Source: Gracilibacillus salitolerans
GTDB taxonomy: Bacteria > Bacillota > Bacilli > Bacillales > Amphibacillaceae
Length of the DNA: 64,000 nucleotides
Direction: 5' to 3'
Assembly (NCBI RefSeq): GCF_009650095.1
Contig: NZ_CP045915.1
Location: 4,526,001-4,590,000, forward strand
The position numbers and the translations under genes are program-made. Positions 8,498-58,441 of the stretch are shown here, in pieces (position 1 is the stretch's first letter; each line of letters opens with the position of its first letter). The notes beneath the pieces are model-generated. The model searched no databases and was not told where the DNA came from. It saw only the letters and a list, made by a program, of their open reading frames with translations.

Positions 8498-10663
8498 TTA
8501 TTTTTTCTTCAATTTCTCTAGTGCATCTGCCAATGCTGTGTTGGCAAAGCCCTCGTCCTGTTTTTTAAGGTATTTGTTTACATCGCGTTTGTTTGCATTA
8601 TTTTTGCCTTGTTTTTCTTTTCGCTTCTGGAAGGAGGATAATTTTTCGCGATAACCACATTTGCAAGAAAAAGTTTGTCCTTCTCCCTGTCCTCGTAAGT
8701 CCATTCTTTTATGACATTTCGGACAGCGCGCATTTGTCTTTTTGGCAATCGGTTTACGCTCTCCACACTCACGATCCTGACAGACAAGCATACGTCCTTT
8801 TTTTCCGTTCACTTCTAACATAAGCTTGCCACACGTTGGACATTTCGTACCTGTCATATTATCGTGTTTATACTTCACATCGCTTGATTTCACTTGGTGT
8901 ACGACTTCTTTTGTATAGTCTTTAATTTCATTGATAAAAGTTGCTTTCTTCAATTGACCGTTAGCGATCTGGTTCAGTTTTTTCTCCCACTCAGCTGTTA
9001 ACATTGGTGAACGCAAATCAGCTGGTACGAGCTCAAGTAACTGTTTACCTTTTGACGTCAGATATAAATACTTACCTTTTTTCTCGATGTAAAAGGTGTT
9101 AAATAACTTTTCGATAATATCCGCTCTTGTAGCAACAGTACCTAATCCGCCAGTTGCTTGTAAAGTTTTTGTTGCGTGTTTTTCGTTTTGCGCCAAAAAC
9201 TTCGCCGGGTTTTCCATTGCTTGTAATAATGTACCTTCCGTTAAACGTTCTGGTGGTTTTGTTTCACCTTCGATCATTGATAAGACAGGCTTATCCCAGA
9301 CATGTTGTTCTTTGATATTACTGATTTTTTGTTCGTCATCATCATTTTCGTCCGTGTTATAAACTGCTTTAAAGCCTTGATCGATTACATTTTTTCCGGT
9401 AGCCGTGAATGTTTCTCCTGCTATTTCTGCAGTTAACTGTATATGCTCAAATTGAAATGGCGGTAGTAACACTGCCAAGAAACGTTTAATGACCAGATCA
9501 TATATTTTTTGTTCCTGATCTGATAGCTTCGATAAATAAACCGGCTCCTCAGTCGGAATAATGGCATGGTGATCAGAAACTTTGGCATTGTCGACAAATG
9601 ATTTGTGTGCTTTAATTGGTTGTTTTTTAATTTTGTTTGCTGCCGTTGCGTAAGGACCTACTCCACAGCTTGCAACTCTTTCCTTTAAAGTCGGTACAAT
9701 GTCTGTGGAAATATATTTAGAATCGGTACGTGGATACGTCAATACTTTATGCTGTTCATAAAGCTTCTGCATTATCGATAATGTTTGTTTCCCCGAGAAA
9801 CTAAAGATCCGGTTCGCATCCCGCTGTAAATCGGTTAAATCGTATAAAGTTGGTGCATAGCTCTTTTTATTCTTTTTATCAATATTAGTGACGGTTAGGG
9901 CTTGATTTTGCAATCGAGATTGGAGCTCTTTTGCCTTTGATTGATCAAAAGAGCGTGTTTCTCCTTTGGCATTTCGCCATGTTAAGGTAATCCCGTCTTT
10001 TGTACGTGCTTTGATTTGATAATATTTTTTCGGTTTAAATTGTTTAATTTCTTTTTCCCTTGAGGCAATCATCGCCAATGTCGGTGTCTGAACACGACCA
10101 CTTGATAACTGTGCATTAAATTTGGTTGTTAATGCTCTTGTCGCATTTAAGCCAACATACCAGTCCGCTTCCGAACGTGCGACTGCTGCTTGGTATAAGT
10201 TTTCATACTGCTTTCCTGGCTTTAAGTTTTGAAAACCTTGTTTAATGGCTTGATCTGTTACGGAAGATATCCACAACCTTTTCACAGGCTTGTTCACTCG
10301 TACTTTTGCCAAAATCCAACGAGCAACTAGTTCGCCTTCTCTTCCTGCATCTGTTGCGATCACTACCTCACTAACGTCTTTACGTATCACTTGGCTTTTA
10401 ACTGCTTGAAATTGTTTGCCTGTTTTTTTGATAACGACTAGTTTCAGTTGATCTGGCAGCATTGGCAATTCGTCTAGCTTCCAAGTTTTATATTTATTAT
10501 CATAGGCTTCAGGATCAGCTAATGTTACTAAATGACCAAGTGCCCACGTCACAATATATTTTGAACCTTCTAGATAGCCATTTCCTTTTTTGTTACATTT
10601 CAATACTCGTGCTATGTCACGGCCAACAGATGGCTTTTCTGCTATTACTACTGTTTTACTCAT
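8498..10663 (-). CDS. topB: DNA topoisomerase III
   Basis: About 721 residues, the normal length for Bacillus TopB. The N-terminal TOPRIM domain shows IAEKPSVGRDIARVL and TDAGREGELVARW; the catalytic Tyr lies at about residue 310 in TYPRTDSKY. The C-terminus carries two Cys-rich zinc-ribbon modules (CPTCGK ... CQDREC and CPKCHK ... CKCGY). The enzyme relaxes negatively supercoiled DNA and decatenates replication or recombination intermediates. Start taken as ATG at 10663, nine bases after GGAAGGG; the in-frame TTG at 10672 abuts that site. Single-gene unit. Confidence 0.95.
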   Translation of the reverse strand: MSKTVVIAEKPSVGRDIARVLKCNKKGNGYLEGSKYIVTWALGHLVTLADPEAYDNKYKTWKLDELPMLPDQLKLVVIKKTGKQFQAVKSQVIRKDVSEVVIATDAGREGELVARWILAKVRVNKPVKRLWISSVTDQAIKQGFQNLKPGKQYENLYQAAVARSEADWYVGLNATRALTTKFNAQLSSGRVQTPTLAMIASREKEIKQFKPKKYYQIKARTKDGITLTWRNAKGETRSFDQSKAKELQSRLQNQALTVTNIDKKNKKSYAPTLYDLTDLQRDANRIFSFSGKQTLSIMQKLYEQHKVLTYPRTDSKYISTDIVPTLKERVASCGVGPYATAANKIKKQPIKAHKSFVDNAKVSDHHAIIPTEEPVYLSKLSDQEQKIYDLVIKRFLAVLLPPFQFEHIQLTAEIAGETFTATGKNVIDQGFKAVYNTDENDDDEQKISNIKEQHVWDKPVLSMIEGETKPPERLTEGTLLQAMENPAKFLAQNEKHATKTLQATGGLGTVATRADIIEKLFNTFYIEKKGKYLYLTSKGKQLLELVPADLRSPMLTAEWEKKLNQIANGQLKKATFINEIKDYTKEVVHQVKSSDVKYKHDNMTGTKCPTCGKLMLEVNGKKGRMLVCQDRECGERKPIAKKTNARCPKCHKRMDLRGQGEGQTFSCKCGYREKLSSFQKRKEKQGKNNANKRDVNKYLKKQDEGFANTALADALEKLKKK

Positions 10664-49245: not shown

Positions 49246-49500
49246 AAAAAACCGTCCATATACAAACTTTATTAGTCTGCATAAGGACGGTTTGGTTTAC
49301 CGCGGTGCCACCTTTTGTTGAAGGGCTATTTGATGTATAGCCTTCCGCTCTTCATCCGTTAACGGGGATCAGCCGTTGCCCTGTACTATTATTTCCAAGG
49401 CACTCTCGAAGGTCCATTCCAATTTCCGTGTATACCGGATTCTCAGCATCTCCAGCTCTCTGTTATACAGGGGGAAACTATACTCTTCCTTCTCATTGAT
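49246..49500 (-). ncRNA. T-box riboswitch 2 (proximal), tryptophan-specific
   Basis: Read on the minus strand: stem I GAGAGCTGGAGATGCTGAG, candidate specifier TGG in GGAATGGACCTTCGAG, the T-box motif AAAAGGTGGCACCGCGG (about 49299-49315), and an intrinsic terminator (ACCGTCC ... GGACGGTTTTTT, 49246-49294). Uncharged tRNA-Trp should stabilise the antiterminator and permit transcription of trpE. Confidence 0.85.
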
Positions 49501-49565
49501 TTATTTGATTACTATTTTTCTGGACACTTTTTTCCTTTACTGGACACTTGGCTTTTCCAACAAAA

Positions 49566-49840
49566 CAAAAAGGGTTTCCACATCCGAAAAGGACGAGGAA
49601 ACCCGTGGTACCACCTTTGTTAGCTGCCCATACAGCTCACTTAATACGTCAATGGATGAATCAATCCATGAACGCTTCCCTTTTGCAACGAGTGGGTATC
49701 TCGCCAAAGCCTACTAGATAATCGTTCGGTTTGGGGCTCGGAAGTCCATTCACTTACCATGCACACTGATTCGCACCATCCATCAGCTCTCTTTAGTGCT
49801 TGAGTATAAGCTACTTCTCTTCGTCAATGCCATCACGTTT
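49566..49840 (-). ncRNA. T-box riboswitch 1 (distal), tryptophan-specific
   Basis: Read on the minus strand: stem I AGAGCTGATGGATGGTGCGA, TGG in GAATGGACTTCCGAGCC as the specifier, T-box motif AACAAAGGTGGTACCACG (about 49604-49621) and terminator GGGTTTCC ... GGAAACCCTTTTT (49566-49603). Tandem with T-box 2, which gives two serial checks for tRNA-Trp charging. Confidence 0.87.
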
Positions 49841-49855
49841 TTTAATGTTGTTACT

Positions 49856-49884
49856 ATCATAGTACGCTCTTGATATTTTGTCAA
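49856..49884 (-). promoter_or_regulatory. Sigma-A promoter of the trp operon
   Basis: TTGACA (49879-49884), 17-bp spacer, TATGAT (49856-49861) on the minus strand; leads into T-box 1. Confidence 0.85.
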
Positions 49885-49922: not shown

Positions 49923-50471
49923 TTAAAACTCGATAATTTCTTCCTCAATTTTCTCACCAAGATGTCGACCTGGCTGATCAACCTTTACTAGAATTCGTTC
50001 ACCTTCTTGTAGTGTAATTGCTGGTTTTTCCATGTGTTCAGGAGTTAATAAGTGAACACTGTCTGCTTCTTGTAATGTCGCCGAAATCTCCGTATCGCCA
50101 ACTTTTGCTATCACACGCATAAGGGGGCGTTTTTCTATTTTCACTCGACCAATGGCAAGTTTTCGCGTCTCTCCTTTTTCATTATAAACCGTGATGCTAT
50201 CACCCGGTTTCAGTTCTGCTAAATATGCTGTCTTCTCATCTTCTTTGAGAACATAGTGATGAATGGCTCCACTATTTACGCGAAAAGGTCTGGCAGGGTA
50301 TGTATCGGTTGTACGATTTTCCGCTAATACAAAAAAGTAGCCATGACCTGTATTTCCTAAAAGTATTCCCTCTGTCGGGGAAAGATGGTCAACTAAATCT
50401 AAACAGACCCGTGATCCCTTACCTATACTCTCAATTCGGACAACCTCTGCCTCTTGCAGGTTATTTACCAA
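49923..50471 (-). CDS. Stand-alone C-terminal domain of 3-dehydroquinate synthase II
   Basis: 182 residues. The sequence follows the C-terminal half of archaeal DHQ synthase II (PF01959) nearly end to end: GKGSRVCLDLVD, EGILLGN, RPFRVNSGAIHHYVL, YLAELKPGDSI, IGRVKIEKRPLM, ATLQEADSVHLL, PGRHLGEKIEE. Archaeal full-length proteins have ~350 residues, and the N-terminal half, which carries the substrate Lys chemistry, is missing, so the protein is unlikely to be the same enzyme. It lies 39 bases upstream of the trp promoter on the same strand and may share in aromatic metabolism. No terminator lies between it and the trp promoter. Confidence 0.85.
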   Translation of the reverse strand: MVNNLQEAEVVRIESIGKGSRVCLDLVDHLSPTEGILLGNTGHGYFFVLAENRTTDTYPARPFRVNSGAIHHYVLKEDEKTAYLAELKPGDSITVYNEKGETRKLAIGRVKIEKRPLMRVIAKVGDTEISATLQEADSVHLLTPEHMEKPAITLQEGERILVKVDQPGRHLGEKIEEEIIEF

Positions 50472-50582
50472 TTTTTATCCTCCATTCAAAATTTTGTGCG
50501 TTTTTCCACAGAAATTACATAGTTATTATACCGAATATCATATACAATATATGTTGGATTTACAAATTAGGAGGGGTAACAT

Positions 50583-50702
50583 ATGAGAAAATTATTAGTA
50601 GTGTTATTTCTTCTATTAATCGCATGCTTCGGTGTGATTGGATTTTCCGCTAACGAACAATCTATAAATGATGATGTAATTGAAATGGAGCAAGCAGAAT
50701 AG
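50583..50702 (+). CDS. 39-residue secreted or membrane-bound peptide
   Basis: ATG at 50583 follows AGGAGGGG at seven bases, and the frame ends at TAG 50700-50702. The product starts MRKLLVVLFLLLIACFGVIG, a basic residue pair plus a long hydrophobic stretch, then an acidic tail (SINDDVIEMEQAE). A terminator follows ten bases later. It could be a small signal peptide-containing protein or a single-pass membrane microprotein. No family recognised; the good start signal and terminator argue that it is real. Confidence 0.6.
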   Translation: MRKLLVVLFLLLIACFGVIGFSANEQSINDDVIEMEQAE

Positions 50703-50711
50703 GAGAAAATT

Positions 50712-50745
50712 AAAGGCTGCTGACTAGTTTAGTCAGCAGCCTTTT
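50712..50745. terminator. Bidirectional terminator
   Basis: AAAGGCTGCTGACT pairs with AGTCAGCAGCCTTT, serving the peptide gene on the plus strand and the Gfo/Idh gene on the minus strand. Confidence 0.85.
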
Positions 50746-56391: not shown

Positions 56392-56423
56392 ACTAACATA
56401 TGTTACTAACTAAATAGCTTTTT

Positions 56424-56575
56424 CTTATCCAGAGAGGTGGAGGGACTGGCCTTACGATACCTCAGCAACCGTCTTTAATTGACAAGGTGCTAAATCCAGC
56501 AAGCATTATGTGCTTGAAAGATGAGAGTCTTTACTAATGAATCTCCGTCTTTCTATAGCCGGGGATTTTTTATTT
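56424..56575 (+). ncRNA. SAM-I (S-box) riboswitch with terminator
   Basis: CTTATCCAGAGAGGTGGAGG, GGACTGGCC, CAGCAACC, AAGGTGCTAAATCCAGC and GATGAGA are the consecutive S-box blocks in normal order. A terminator (AATCTCCG ... CGGGGATT followed by T residues) ends at 56575. High SAM should stop transcription ahead of yitJ-metE. Confidence 0.95.
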
Positions 56576-56599: not shown

Positions 56600-58441
56600 A
56601 TGTCTGACTTAATCACTCATTTACAAAACAGGTTAATAGTCGCTGATGGAGCAATGGGGACTTTACTATACTCCCACGGTGTTGATCGATGTTTCGAATC
56701 TTACAACACCACTCATCCCGATGAAATCCTCCATGTTCATCAAACTTATCTTGATGCTGGAGCAGAAGTTATTCAGACCAACACTTATGGAGCGAACTAT
56801 ATCAAATTGTCTCGCTTTGGTTTAGAAGACCAAGTACATCAATTGAATACCAAAGCGGTTCAGCTCGCCAAGACTGCTGCTGAAGACCGAGCATTTGTAT
56901 TAGGAACAATCGGAGGAATTAGAGGGGTTCAAAAATTAATAACTTCCAAAAAAGAGATTATCCGCAGCTTTAAAGAACAACTATTCTCACTATTACTAGA
57001 AGGTGTGGATGGCATTTTACTGGAAACATACTATGACTTTGAAGAAATAAAACAAGTGTTAGAGATTGCTAGACAAGAAACAGATCTACCTATCATTGCG
57101 AATGTTTCCATGCACGAACCTGGCGTGATGGAAAATGGGATCCAGCTTGCAGTGGCCCTCCAAAAATTAGAAGAGATTGGCGCAGACGTTGTAGGAGTGA
57201 ACTGCCATTTAGGTCCTCACTATATGATCAAAGCACTAGAGTCTGTCCCACTTCTTGAAAAGGCCTTATTAGCAGCATATCCGAATGCAAGTCTTCCTGC
57301 TTATCAAAACGGGAAACTAGTTTACAACCAATATAGCCACTACTTTGAAAGATGTGCGAAGGATTTCCGCGATCAAGGTGTGCGCTTACTAGGTGGATGT
57401 TGTGGTACAACACCGGAACATATCCGAGCACTCAAAGAGGGTATTGCCGACTTAGAGCCTATTAAAGAAAAAGAAATCAAACAAGTAACATTTACCCAAA
57501 ACACAAATGACCAGCAACCTCCACTACGAACAACGCTTGCAGATAAGGCTCGAAAACGACATACCGTTATTGTGGAACTAGACGCACCAAAACATCTGGA
57601 CACAGAATCCTTCATGAATGGTGCATTTGCATTGGAGAATGCTGGGGTGGATGCCATTACCTTAGCTGATAACTCCTTGGCTACTCCACGTATTAGTAAT
57701 CTCGCAATGGCCATGAAAATGAAGCAAGCAGGTTGTCACGCAACACCACTTATCCATTTAACGTGTCGTGACCGAAATTTAATTGGGCTTCAATCCCATT
57801 TAATGGGACTGCATACACTAGGCTTTCATGAAATTCTAGCCATTACTGGAGATCCGACACGAATTGGTGGTTTTCCAGGTGCATCATCTGTTTTTGATGT
57901 GACATCTTTTGAACTAACAAAACTTATTAAACAACAGTCTAACCAAGGGCTTTCTTTTTCTGGTCGTTCTTTAAAAACAAACACCCAGTTTCAAGTAGCT
58001 GCTGCATTTAATCCTAATGTAGCTAATCTCGATAAAGCAGTAAAAAGAATGGAACGGAAAATAAAGCATGGTGCGGACTACTTTTTGACTCAGCCTATTT
58101 TCAATCATGAGCAAATTATCGAATTACATCGACTTACTAAACATATTGATAAACCCATTTTCATTGGGATTATGCCACTCACTTCCCATCGGAATGCAGA
58201 ATTTCTTCATCATGAAGTGCCAGGCATGAAACTGTCCGATGAAGTTCGAACAAGAATGCAGCATCATGATAATCGCCAAGATAGTTTACAAGAGGGTATC
58301 CAAATCTCCAAGGAATTAATCAAGACGGCTATGAACTATTTTAATGGCATTTATATTATCACACCGTTTATGCACTATCCGTTAACAGTGGAACTCACGA
58401 AGTATGTTCATCAACAAGCTAAGTTAGTAACAAAAATATAA
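56600..58441 (+). CDS. yitJ: Bifunctional homocysteine S-methyltransferase / methylenetetrahydrofolate reductase
   Basis: 613 residues. Residues 1-295 form the homocysteine methyltransferase barrel with zinc-ligand cysteines in GVNCHLGP and [10 protein letters not shown]. Residues about 315-605 are a MetF-type methylenetetrahydrofolate reductase (FAD site around [24 protein letters not shown]). It supplies methyl-THF for MetE and may itself methylate homocysteine. First gene after the SAM-I riboswitch; RBS GAAGAGAGGTG is before the ATG. Confidence 0.94.

Follow-up and report, generated by a model that had tools for sequence, protein, structure and literature searches.

The question raised by this locus is what a bacterium does with a gene encoding only the C-terminal half of archaeal-type 3-dehydroquinate (DHQ) synthase II, placed a short distance ahead of its trp operon. 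Such a stand-alone half was recognised, in an initial annotation made from the sequence, in the 64,000-nucleotide stretch of Gracilibacillus salitolerans DNA analysed here (hereafter the window). The elements that define the gene are as follows.

49923..50471, minus strand: stand-alone gene for the C-terminal domain of DHQ synthase II, 182 amino acids from a TTG start, PF01959 match at E 8.8e-63
50479..50483, minus strand: Shine-Dalgarno sequence GGAGG, 7 nt 5' of the TTG, by reading of the sequence
50475..50477, minus strand: in-frame TAA, two codons ahead of the TTG

Since the TAA at 50475..50477 closes the reading frame, there is no extension upstream into an N-terminal half. Consistent with this, the Pfam scan places the protein on positions 166-343 of the 344 in the PF01959 profile (212.7 bits, E 8.8e-63), a C-half match for which chance is excluded, and in a whole-genome profile search the gene is the single PF01959 match of G. 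salitolerans. The initial annotation was thus right about the stand-alone half, of which only these profile positions are matched, and about the Shine-Dalgarno site (GGAGG, 7 nt before the TTG); the start it quoted, VNNLQEAEV, is correct as sequence but begins at residue 2, residue 1 coming from the TTG. The two-domain make-up of DHQ synthase II (N-terminal PF01959 plus C-terminal PF26558) is not found in the window protein, whose membership of the C-terminal PF26558 domain comes through a precomputed label on 120 listed relatives, the protein itself having been scanned with the older, undivided PF01959 model. Its best NCBIfam equivalog, NF002627, scores 188.3 bits against a cut-off of 392, and the model for 3,4-AHBA synthase (NF041224) scores 114.9 bits against a cut-off of 750.

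The short form is by no means peculiar to this genome. A protein search with the window protein gave 291 candidates, 178 of them relatives at E <= 0.001, and the best 120 of the 178, 147-222 aa long, are without exception labelled PF26558.1 alone; PF26558.1 together with PF01959.22 is found on 119 of the 120 listed matches of a full-length query, the exception (P0138, 217 aa) lying on an 830-base contig. Among the best 80 of 96 loci in species genomes, 78 are short and two, both from Euryarchaeota, are full-length, and overall the short form accounts for 112 of the 163 family loci gathered, with some genomes counted twice. Within the window's family, a check for short PF01959 members that had been proposed at the outset yields matches in 45 of 159 genomes, all of them C-half only and 43 apparently whole. 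The window's order has matches in 28 of 249 genomes (25 short, five of which also lie within the family count of 45, and three full-length), its phylum in 20 of 398 (18 full-length in type, one weak, and the short gene of the window itself), Verrucomicrobiota in three of 240 (two full-length and one short, the latter being the centre genome itself) and the phylum of an archaeal member in 69 of 145, all of full-length type by profile span. Fifteen genomes examined through named loci hold one match each, short in 14 and full-length in one. Both forms together were seen in none of the genomes searched, be it by family, order, phylum, archaeal phylum or named loci. On viral contigs, 37 stretches matched a pattern and none encodes a relative, while plasmid records gave 13 matches of 33-38% identity; the three that were inspected are full-length genes (369-446 aa by annotated coordinates), two of which adjoin an annotated ADH synthase. 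Damaged copies occur as well: one is split into two pieces (G022), another keeps only profile positions 260-343 (G107), and Gracilibacillus boraciitolerans (L040) has a damaged copy with a 147-aa frame. Judged by organism names only, many salt-water, saline and alkaline bacteria carry the stand-alone form; a strain of Halobacillus halophilus (L083) is one such carrier. A tie to salt adaptation through ectoine synthase was considered and found not to be clear: the enzyme is present in 39 of 45 genomes with the short gene versus 83 of 114 without it, and six short-gene genomes lack it.

Is the gene, then, what remains of a decaying full-length gene? Half of the family profile is missing and two of the 45 family genomes hold damaged copies, as such a scenario would have it. 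To our minds, however, it is hardly credible and we reject it, given that no full-length gene exists in any of the 45 matching family genomes, that no remains of an N-domain were found nearby, that dN/dS lies at 0.06-0.08 and that the short proteins form one group spanning phyla. The latter is seen in a tree built from 83 C-domains (44 short, 21 archaeal full-length and 18 bacterial full-length rows, out of 91, 41 and 18 available, with near relatives among the short rows removed by hand and every second archaeal row used), where all 44 short rows fall on one side of a 100/100 branch versus 39 full-length rows on the other. This short group comprises Bacillota, Verrucomicrobiota and Pseudomonadota; long branches were flagged for L107, L108, L070 and P0105. 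Read without a root, the tree would fit loss of the N-domain as well as its later gain. To its three nearest relatives the gene shows dN/dS values of 0.064, 0.078 and 0.082, to a fourth, with dS near saturation, 0.068, while a fifth comparison is saturated; over the same three near comparisons the four trp genes range from 0.032 to 0.085 and the upstream Gfo/Idh-type gene from 0.020 to 0.038. Based on its values in the near comparisons (0.064-0.082), the gene is under strong purifying selection, a little weaker than that on most neighbours (its dN to L034 is 0.159 versus 0.046-0.073 for the four trp genes). Relaxed selection, which had been named as a sign of decay, is therefore not seen, and the earlier view that the start does not reflect a recent truncation holds good, with relatives in one 100/100 group, dN/dS at 0.06-0.08 and 120 listed relatives labelled PF26558.1 alone.

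If the gene is intact, the missing N-terminal domain might still be supplied in trans by a protein that has escaped recognition. This scenario draws on the poor conservation of the N-domain between groups, which could let a diverged partner go undetected, and on its weak resemblance to solved structures (TIM-barrel-like matches only, E 0.013 or worse). Against it, an N-domain model found no credible N-domain in seven short-form genomes (no match at E<=10 in six, E 0.37 in the seventh) while matching both full-length control genomes at <=1.2e-37, one of which had given a row to the model and the other had not; the alignment of N-domain references excludes L113, L114, L122, L125 and L162 and holds the L118 row without its end. 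The fetched short loci likewise gave nothing below E 0.28, and no partner gene recurs outside related genera among 81 loci (window included). An N-domain encoded elsewhere in the genome was rejected, with a single PF01959 match and no N-domain in the short-form genomes searched, and we consider a partner in trans unlikely.

Next to domain make-up, the name DHQ synthase II brings with it a pathway. In the archaeal route, according to PMC4162585, a (trans)aldolase makes an intermediate whose oxidative deamination and cyclisation have been proposed as the task of DHQ synthase II; the name ADH for this intermediate is taken from the NCBIfam model. Using an aldolase model search, we found an ADH-synthase-type aldolase in 46 of 50 full-length loci (eight of which supplied model sequences and so match by construction), in none of 112 short loci and nowhere in the window region. 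Aldolases accompany 17 of 18 Bacillota full-length genes (missing in L130) and 29 of 32 archaeal ones (missing in L140, L142 and L146), the archaeal set being the best 30 of 69 genomes plus L109 and L110. Full-length loci from the genome search carry flanks of 1.5 kb, and 5 kb or more is available on each side of the gene in 65 of the 77 short loci from genome contigs that were measured; a shortage of sequence around the short genes thus does not account for the contrast. Left uncounted was an ORF at L064, a short locus, which scored 14.4 bits (E 0.00099) in one of two aldolase searches. Seven of ten ORFs scanned near Bacillota full-length genes, from seven loci, are DeoC-type aldolases. The window's own genome has no ADH synthase match at E<=0.001, and a genus survey found one in just 1 of 17 genomes (own included) at 115 bits against a cut-off of 299. 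Hence an ADH synthase in the genome or beside the gene, expected of a DHQ synthase II, is lacking for the window gene.

Nor does the short protein replace AroB, as a DHQ synthase II would be expected to. A proposed check for aroB found AroB in the window's own genome and in 159 of 159 family genomes, with or without the short gene, which is present in 45 of them, and nothing points to the AroB partner that had been suggested. A partnership with AroB, or an alternative to it in dehydroquinate synthesis, could appeal to homology with DHQ synthase II, to the database name and to Halobacterium salinarum, where an insertion in the full-length gene leads to aromatic auxotrophy according to PMC4162585. 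Yet the invariable presence of AroB, together with an ADH synthase that is found neither in the genome nor beside the gene, makes this reading very unlikely. Moreover, the same source reports that a full-length member, MMP0006 of Methanococcus maripaludis (69% identical to its M. jannaschii homologue), is not needed for aromatic amino-acid synthesis, so that membership of the family is no proof of the role. KEGG K11646 is listed in PMC9978934, and in the open literature, judged by title or abstract start, we found no paper treating the stand-alone form. With four features expected of DHQ synthase II absent (two domains, equivalog-level score, ADH synthase, AroB replacement) and one, the conserved core, present, the label '3-dehydroquinate synthase II' that databases give to the short proteins is probably wrong.

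A different tie to aromatic metabolism is suggested by the position of the gene. Between it and trpE, and just upstream of it, the window holds the following elements.

49586..49836, minus strand: T-box leader 1 of the trp operon, RF00230, 129.6 bits, a neighbour outside the gene
49280..49505, minus strand: T-box leader 2 of the trp operon, RF00230, 132.9 bits, a neighbour outside the gene
49856..49884, minus strand: promoter-like site of the trp operon, TTGACA-17-TATGAT, 11/12, between the gene and the T-boxes
50537..50565, minus strand: the gene's own promoter-like site, TTGTAA-17-TATGAT, 9/12, a consensus match only

The gene does sit ahead of a tandem T-box leader, as first described, with two T-boxes downstream of it and before trpE. 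Counting the window, 35 of 81 loci have it ahead of trpE, namely in Gracilibacillus, Aquibacillus, Amphibacillus, Paraliobacillus, Halolactibacillus and a few related genera, and in all 35 of these trp-type loci it keeps its place ahead of trp while other neighbours change, a constancy that a functional tie could explain. Of the 13 trp-type rows entered in the tree, 12 belong to a single starred group of 16 rows, and that from Streptohalobacillus (L102) is unresolved at the base. T-boxes follow the gene directly before trpE in the window and in nine of nine loci scanned out of 34 fetched trp-type loci; eight of the nine have two T-boxes and L070 has one. At L043 the T-boxes also lie 3' of two inserted genes. 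Two or more ORFs separate the gene from trpE in Aquibacillus loci L043, L046, L054, L058, L059, L068 and L075, and these ORFs include one that clusters with what we take to be DEAD-helicase-like proteins. A role tied to the trp operon, with the protein binding a ligand as a sensor, carrier or modulator for aromatic amino-acid synthesis, would be in line with the order gene-T-box-trp being kept over several genera (35/81 loci), even where upstream neighbours change. The adjacency, however, is limited to one set of genera, the T-boxes and the trp promoter-like site lie 3' of the gene, one or more other genes intervene in some trp-type loci, and none of eight other-type loci scanned (of 44) has a T-box. 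We therefore hold such a role to be improbable, and the link to aromatic metabolism first proposed on the strength of the trp adjacency and T-boxes finds no support.

With a promoter-like site of its own and that of trp lying between it and the T-boxes, the gene looks like a separate transcription unit, although read-through into trp is possible, no terminator-like site having been found between gene and trp in the window. Among 33 trp-type loci, 18 have a block of the TATATGATA type ahead of the gene, versus 1 of 42 others. Promoter-like sites number seven in the scanned stretch versus 4.4 +/- 1.8 in shuffles. Upstream of the gene a SigA pattern is found in 8 of 75 loci versus 2.35 in shuffles, the starts being script-chosen and some of them doubtful; SigB and SigW patterns are found in 0/75 each. 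Riboswitch control was rejected, since the region ahead of the gene has no Rfam match, be it in the window or at eight other loci; at L104 (Evansella sp.) a Bacillaceae-1 RNA, 9675-9743 (+), lies about 135 bases 3' of the short gene. On the other side of the window gene, a small 39-aa ORF whose N-terminus is hydrophobic lies at 50583-50702 (+); after it, at 50712-50744, comes a strong hairpin that resembles a bidirectional terminator, and further away a SAM riboswitch at 56422-56527 (+) precedes a 613-aa gene at 56600, which we take to be homocysteine methyltransferase / methylenetetrahydrofolate reductase-like.

Outside the trp-type genera, the neighbours of the short gene vary by genus group. 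Among ten close neighbours scanned, nine adjoin short genes and show no relationship with one another: hydroxyethylthiazole kinase, sugar-diacid regulator, histidine kinase, transposase, inositol monophosphatase, PRD regulator, glyoxalase, HlyD and metallophosphatase. The tenth, beside the full-length L109, is an aldolase. Marinococcus and Salibacterium/Alteribacillus (L063, L067, L072, L080, L076, L088, L089 and L096-L098) have another group-specific gene order, with what we assume to be a cation/proton-antiporter-like gene near the short gene.

If neither the N-domain nor the pathway travels with the short protein, where does its function reside? Over 59 full-length proteins, 32 C-half versus five N-half columns are at least 95% conserved. 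The corresponding numbers are 46 C-half and eight N-half columns for 30 archaeal and 42 and 27 for 18 Bacillota full-length proteins, and 53 Poseidoniales-type sequences share many invariant N-half columns. Because N-half columns are well kept inside these groups, the N-half may well share in the chemistry of full-length enzymes. The original view that chemistry resides in the missing N-half is nonetheless doubtful: the whole-family conservation (32 versus 5) contradicts it, though without disproving it. Twenty-seven columns are conserved in all three groups, short (91 rows), bacterial full-length (18) and archaeal full-length (41), so that the short proteins do carry the conserved core residues of the DHQ synthase II C-domain. 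Eighteen of them are polar, including six Arg, one Lys, two His, three Glu, one Asp and one Cys; in the window protein, with the TTG residue as 1, these are R21, C23, D25, E51, R61, R64, N66, H71, Y73, Y83, R109, K111, E113, R115, Q134, R169, H170 and E181. Ten further columns (D28, G42, Y45, L49, Y58, P59, R119, S130, S138 and D165) are at least 95% conserved in the short group and have another majority residue in both full-length groups. Common and short-specific columns together fit a shared binding or active site with changed specificity. Such conservation marks where function concentrates and is no proof that the C-half works alone, and a conserved putative binding site could serve sensing instead of catalysis. 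Sequence searches of solved structures gave no credible relative of the family, the best E being 1.1 or worse.

On balance the most likely reading, which we hold with modest confidence, is that the window protein is an old single-domain protein, the conserved core of its family, that acts as a stand-alone enzyme on a different anionic metabolite. It would correspond to the conserved part of DHQ synthase II, free of an N-terminal domain that varies more. Going by the conserved residues, this core probably binds an anionic small metabolite, carboxylate- or phosphate-bearing and perhaps with NAD(P), and probably performs chemistry on it unaided; the substrate would be other than that of DHQ synthase II and the product would not be dehydroquinate. 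The gene is probably transcribed alone, and its position ahead of trp is probably an inherited gene order in one set of genera. A more tentative extension, which we hold to be possible without counting on it, sees the C-terminal domain as the catalytic unit of the whole family, constituting by itself a separate enzyme class for an undescribed metabolite, while the TIM-like N-domain was perhaps added (or lost) to tune the substrate or to bring in the ADH pathway. Should a stand-alone enzyme be the right reading, many '3-dehydroquinate synthase II' database entries would need a new name and pathway reconstructions that count such entries as aromatic biosynthesis would be affected; a natural single-domain version may also offer a small test object for locating the chemistry of the family.

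How, then, does the protein compare with known systems? Closest is archaeal DHQ synthase II (EC 1.4.1.24; MJ1249, OE1475F; PF01959/PF26558), to whose C-terminal domain it is homologous, with 27 columns in common. It differs, however, in lacking the N-terminal domain and an adjoining ADH synthase, in coexisting with AroB and in scoring 188.3 bits where the nearest equivalog demands 392. The same C-domain family is found in the bacterial 3,4-AHBA synthases (NF041224), including BagC/FevH and GriH; unlike these, the window protein is short, stays far under the cut-off of 750 and is encoded in no such cluster, with no aldolase nearby. Full-length bacterial members in general adjoin aldolases, some in biosynthetic surroundings, whereas the window gene does not. 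MMP0006 of Methanococcus maripaludis belongs to the same family but is full-length, unlike the window protein, and AroB (PF01761), which makes DHQ, the nominal product of the window protein, is of a different family and separately present in the genome.
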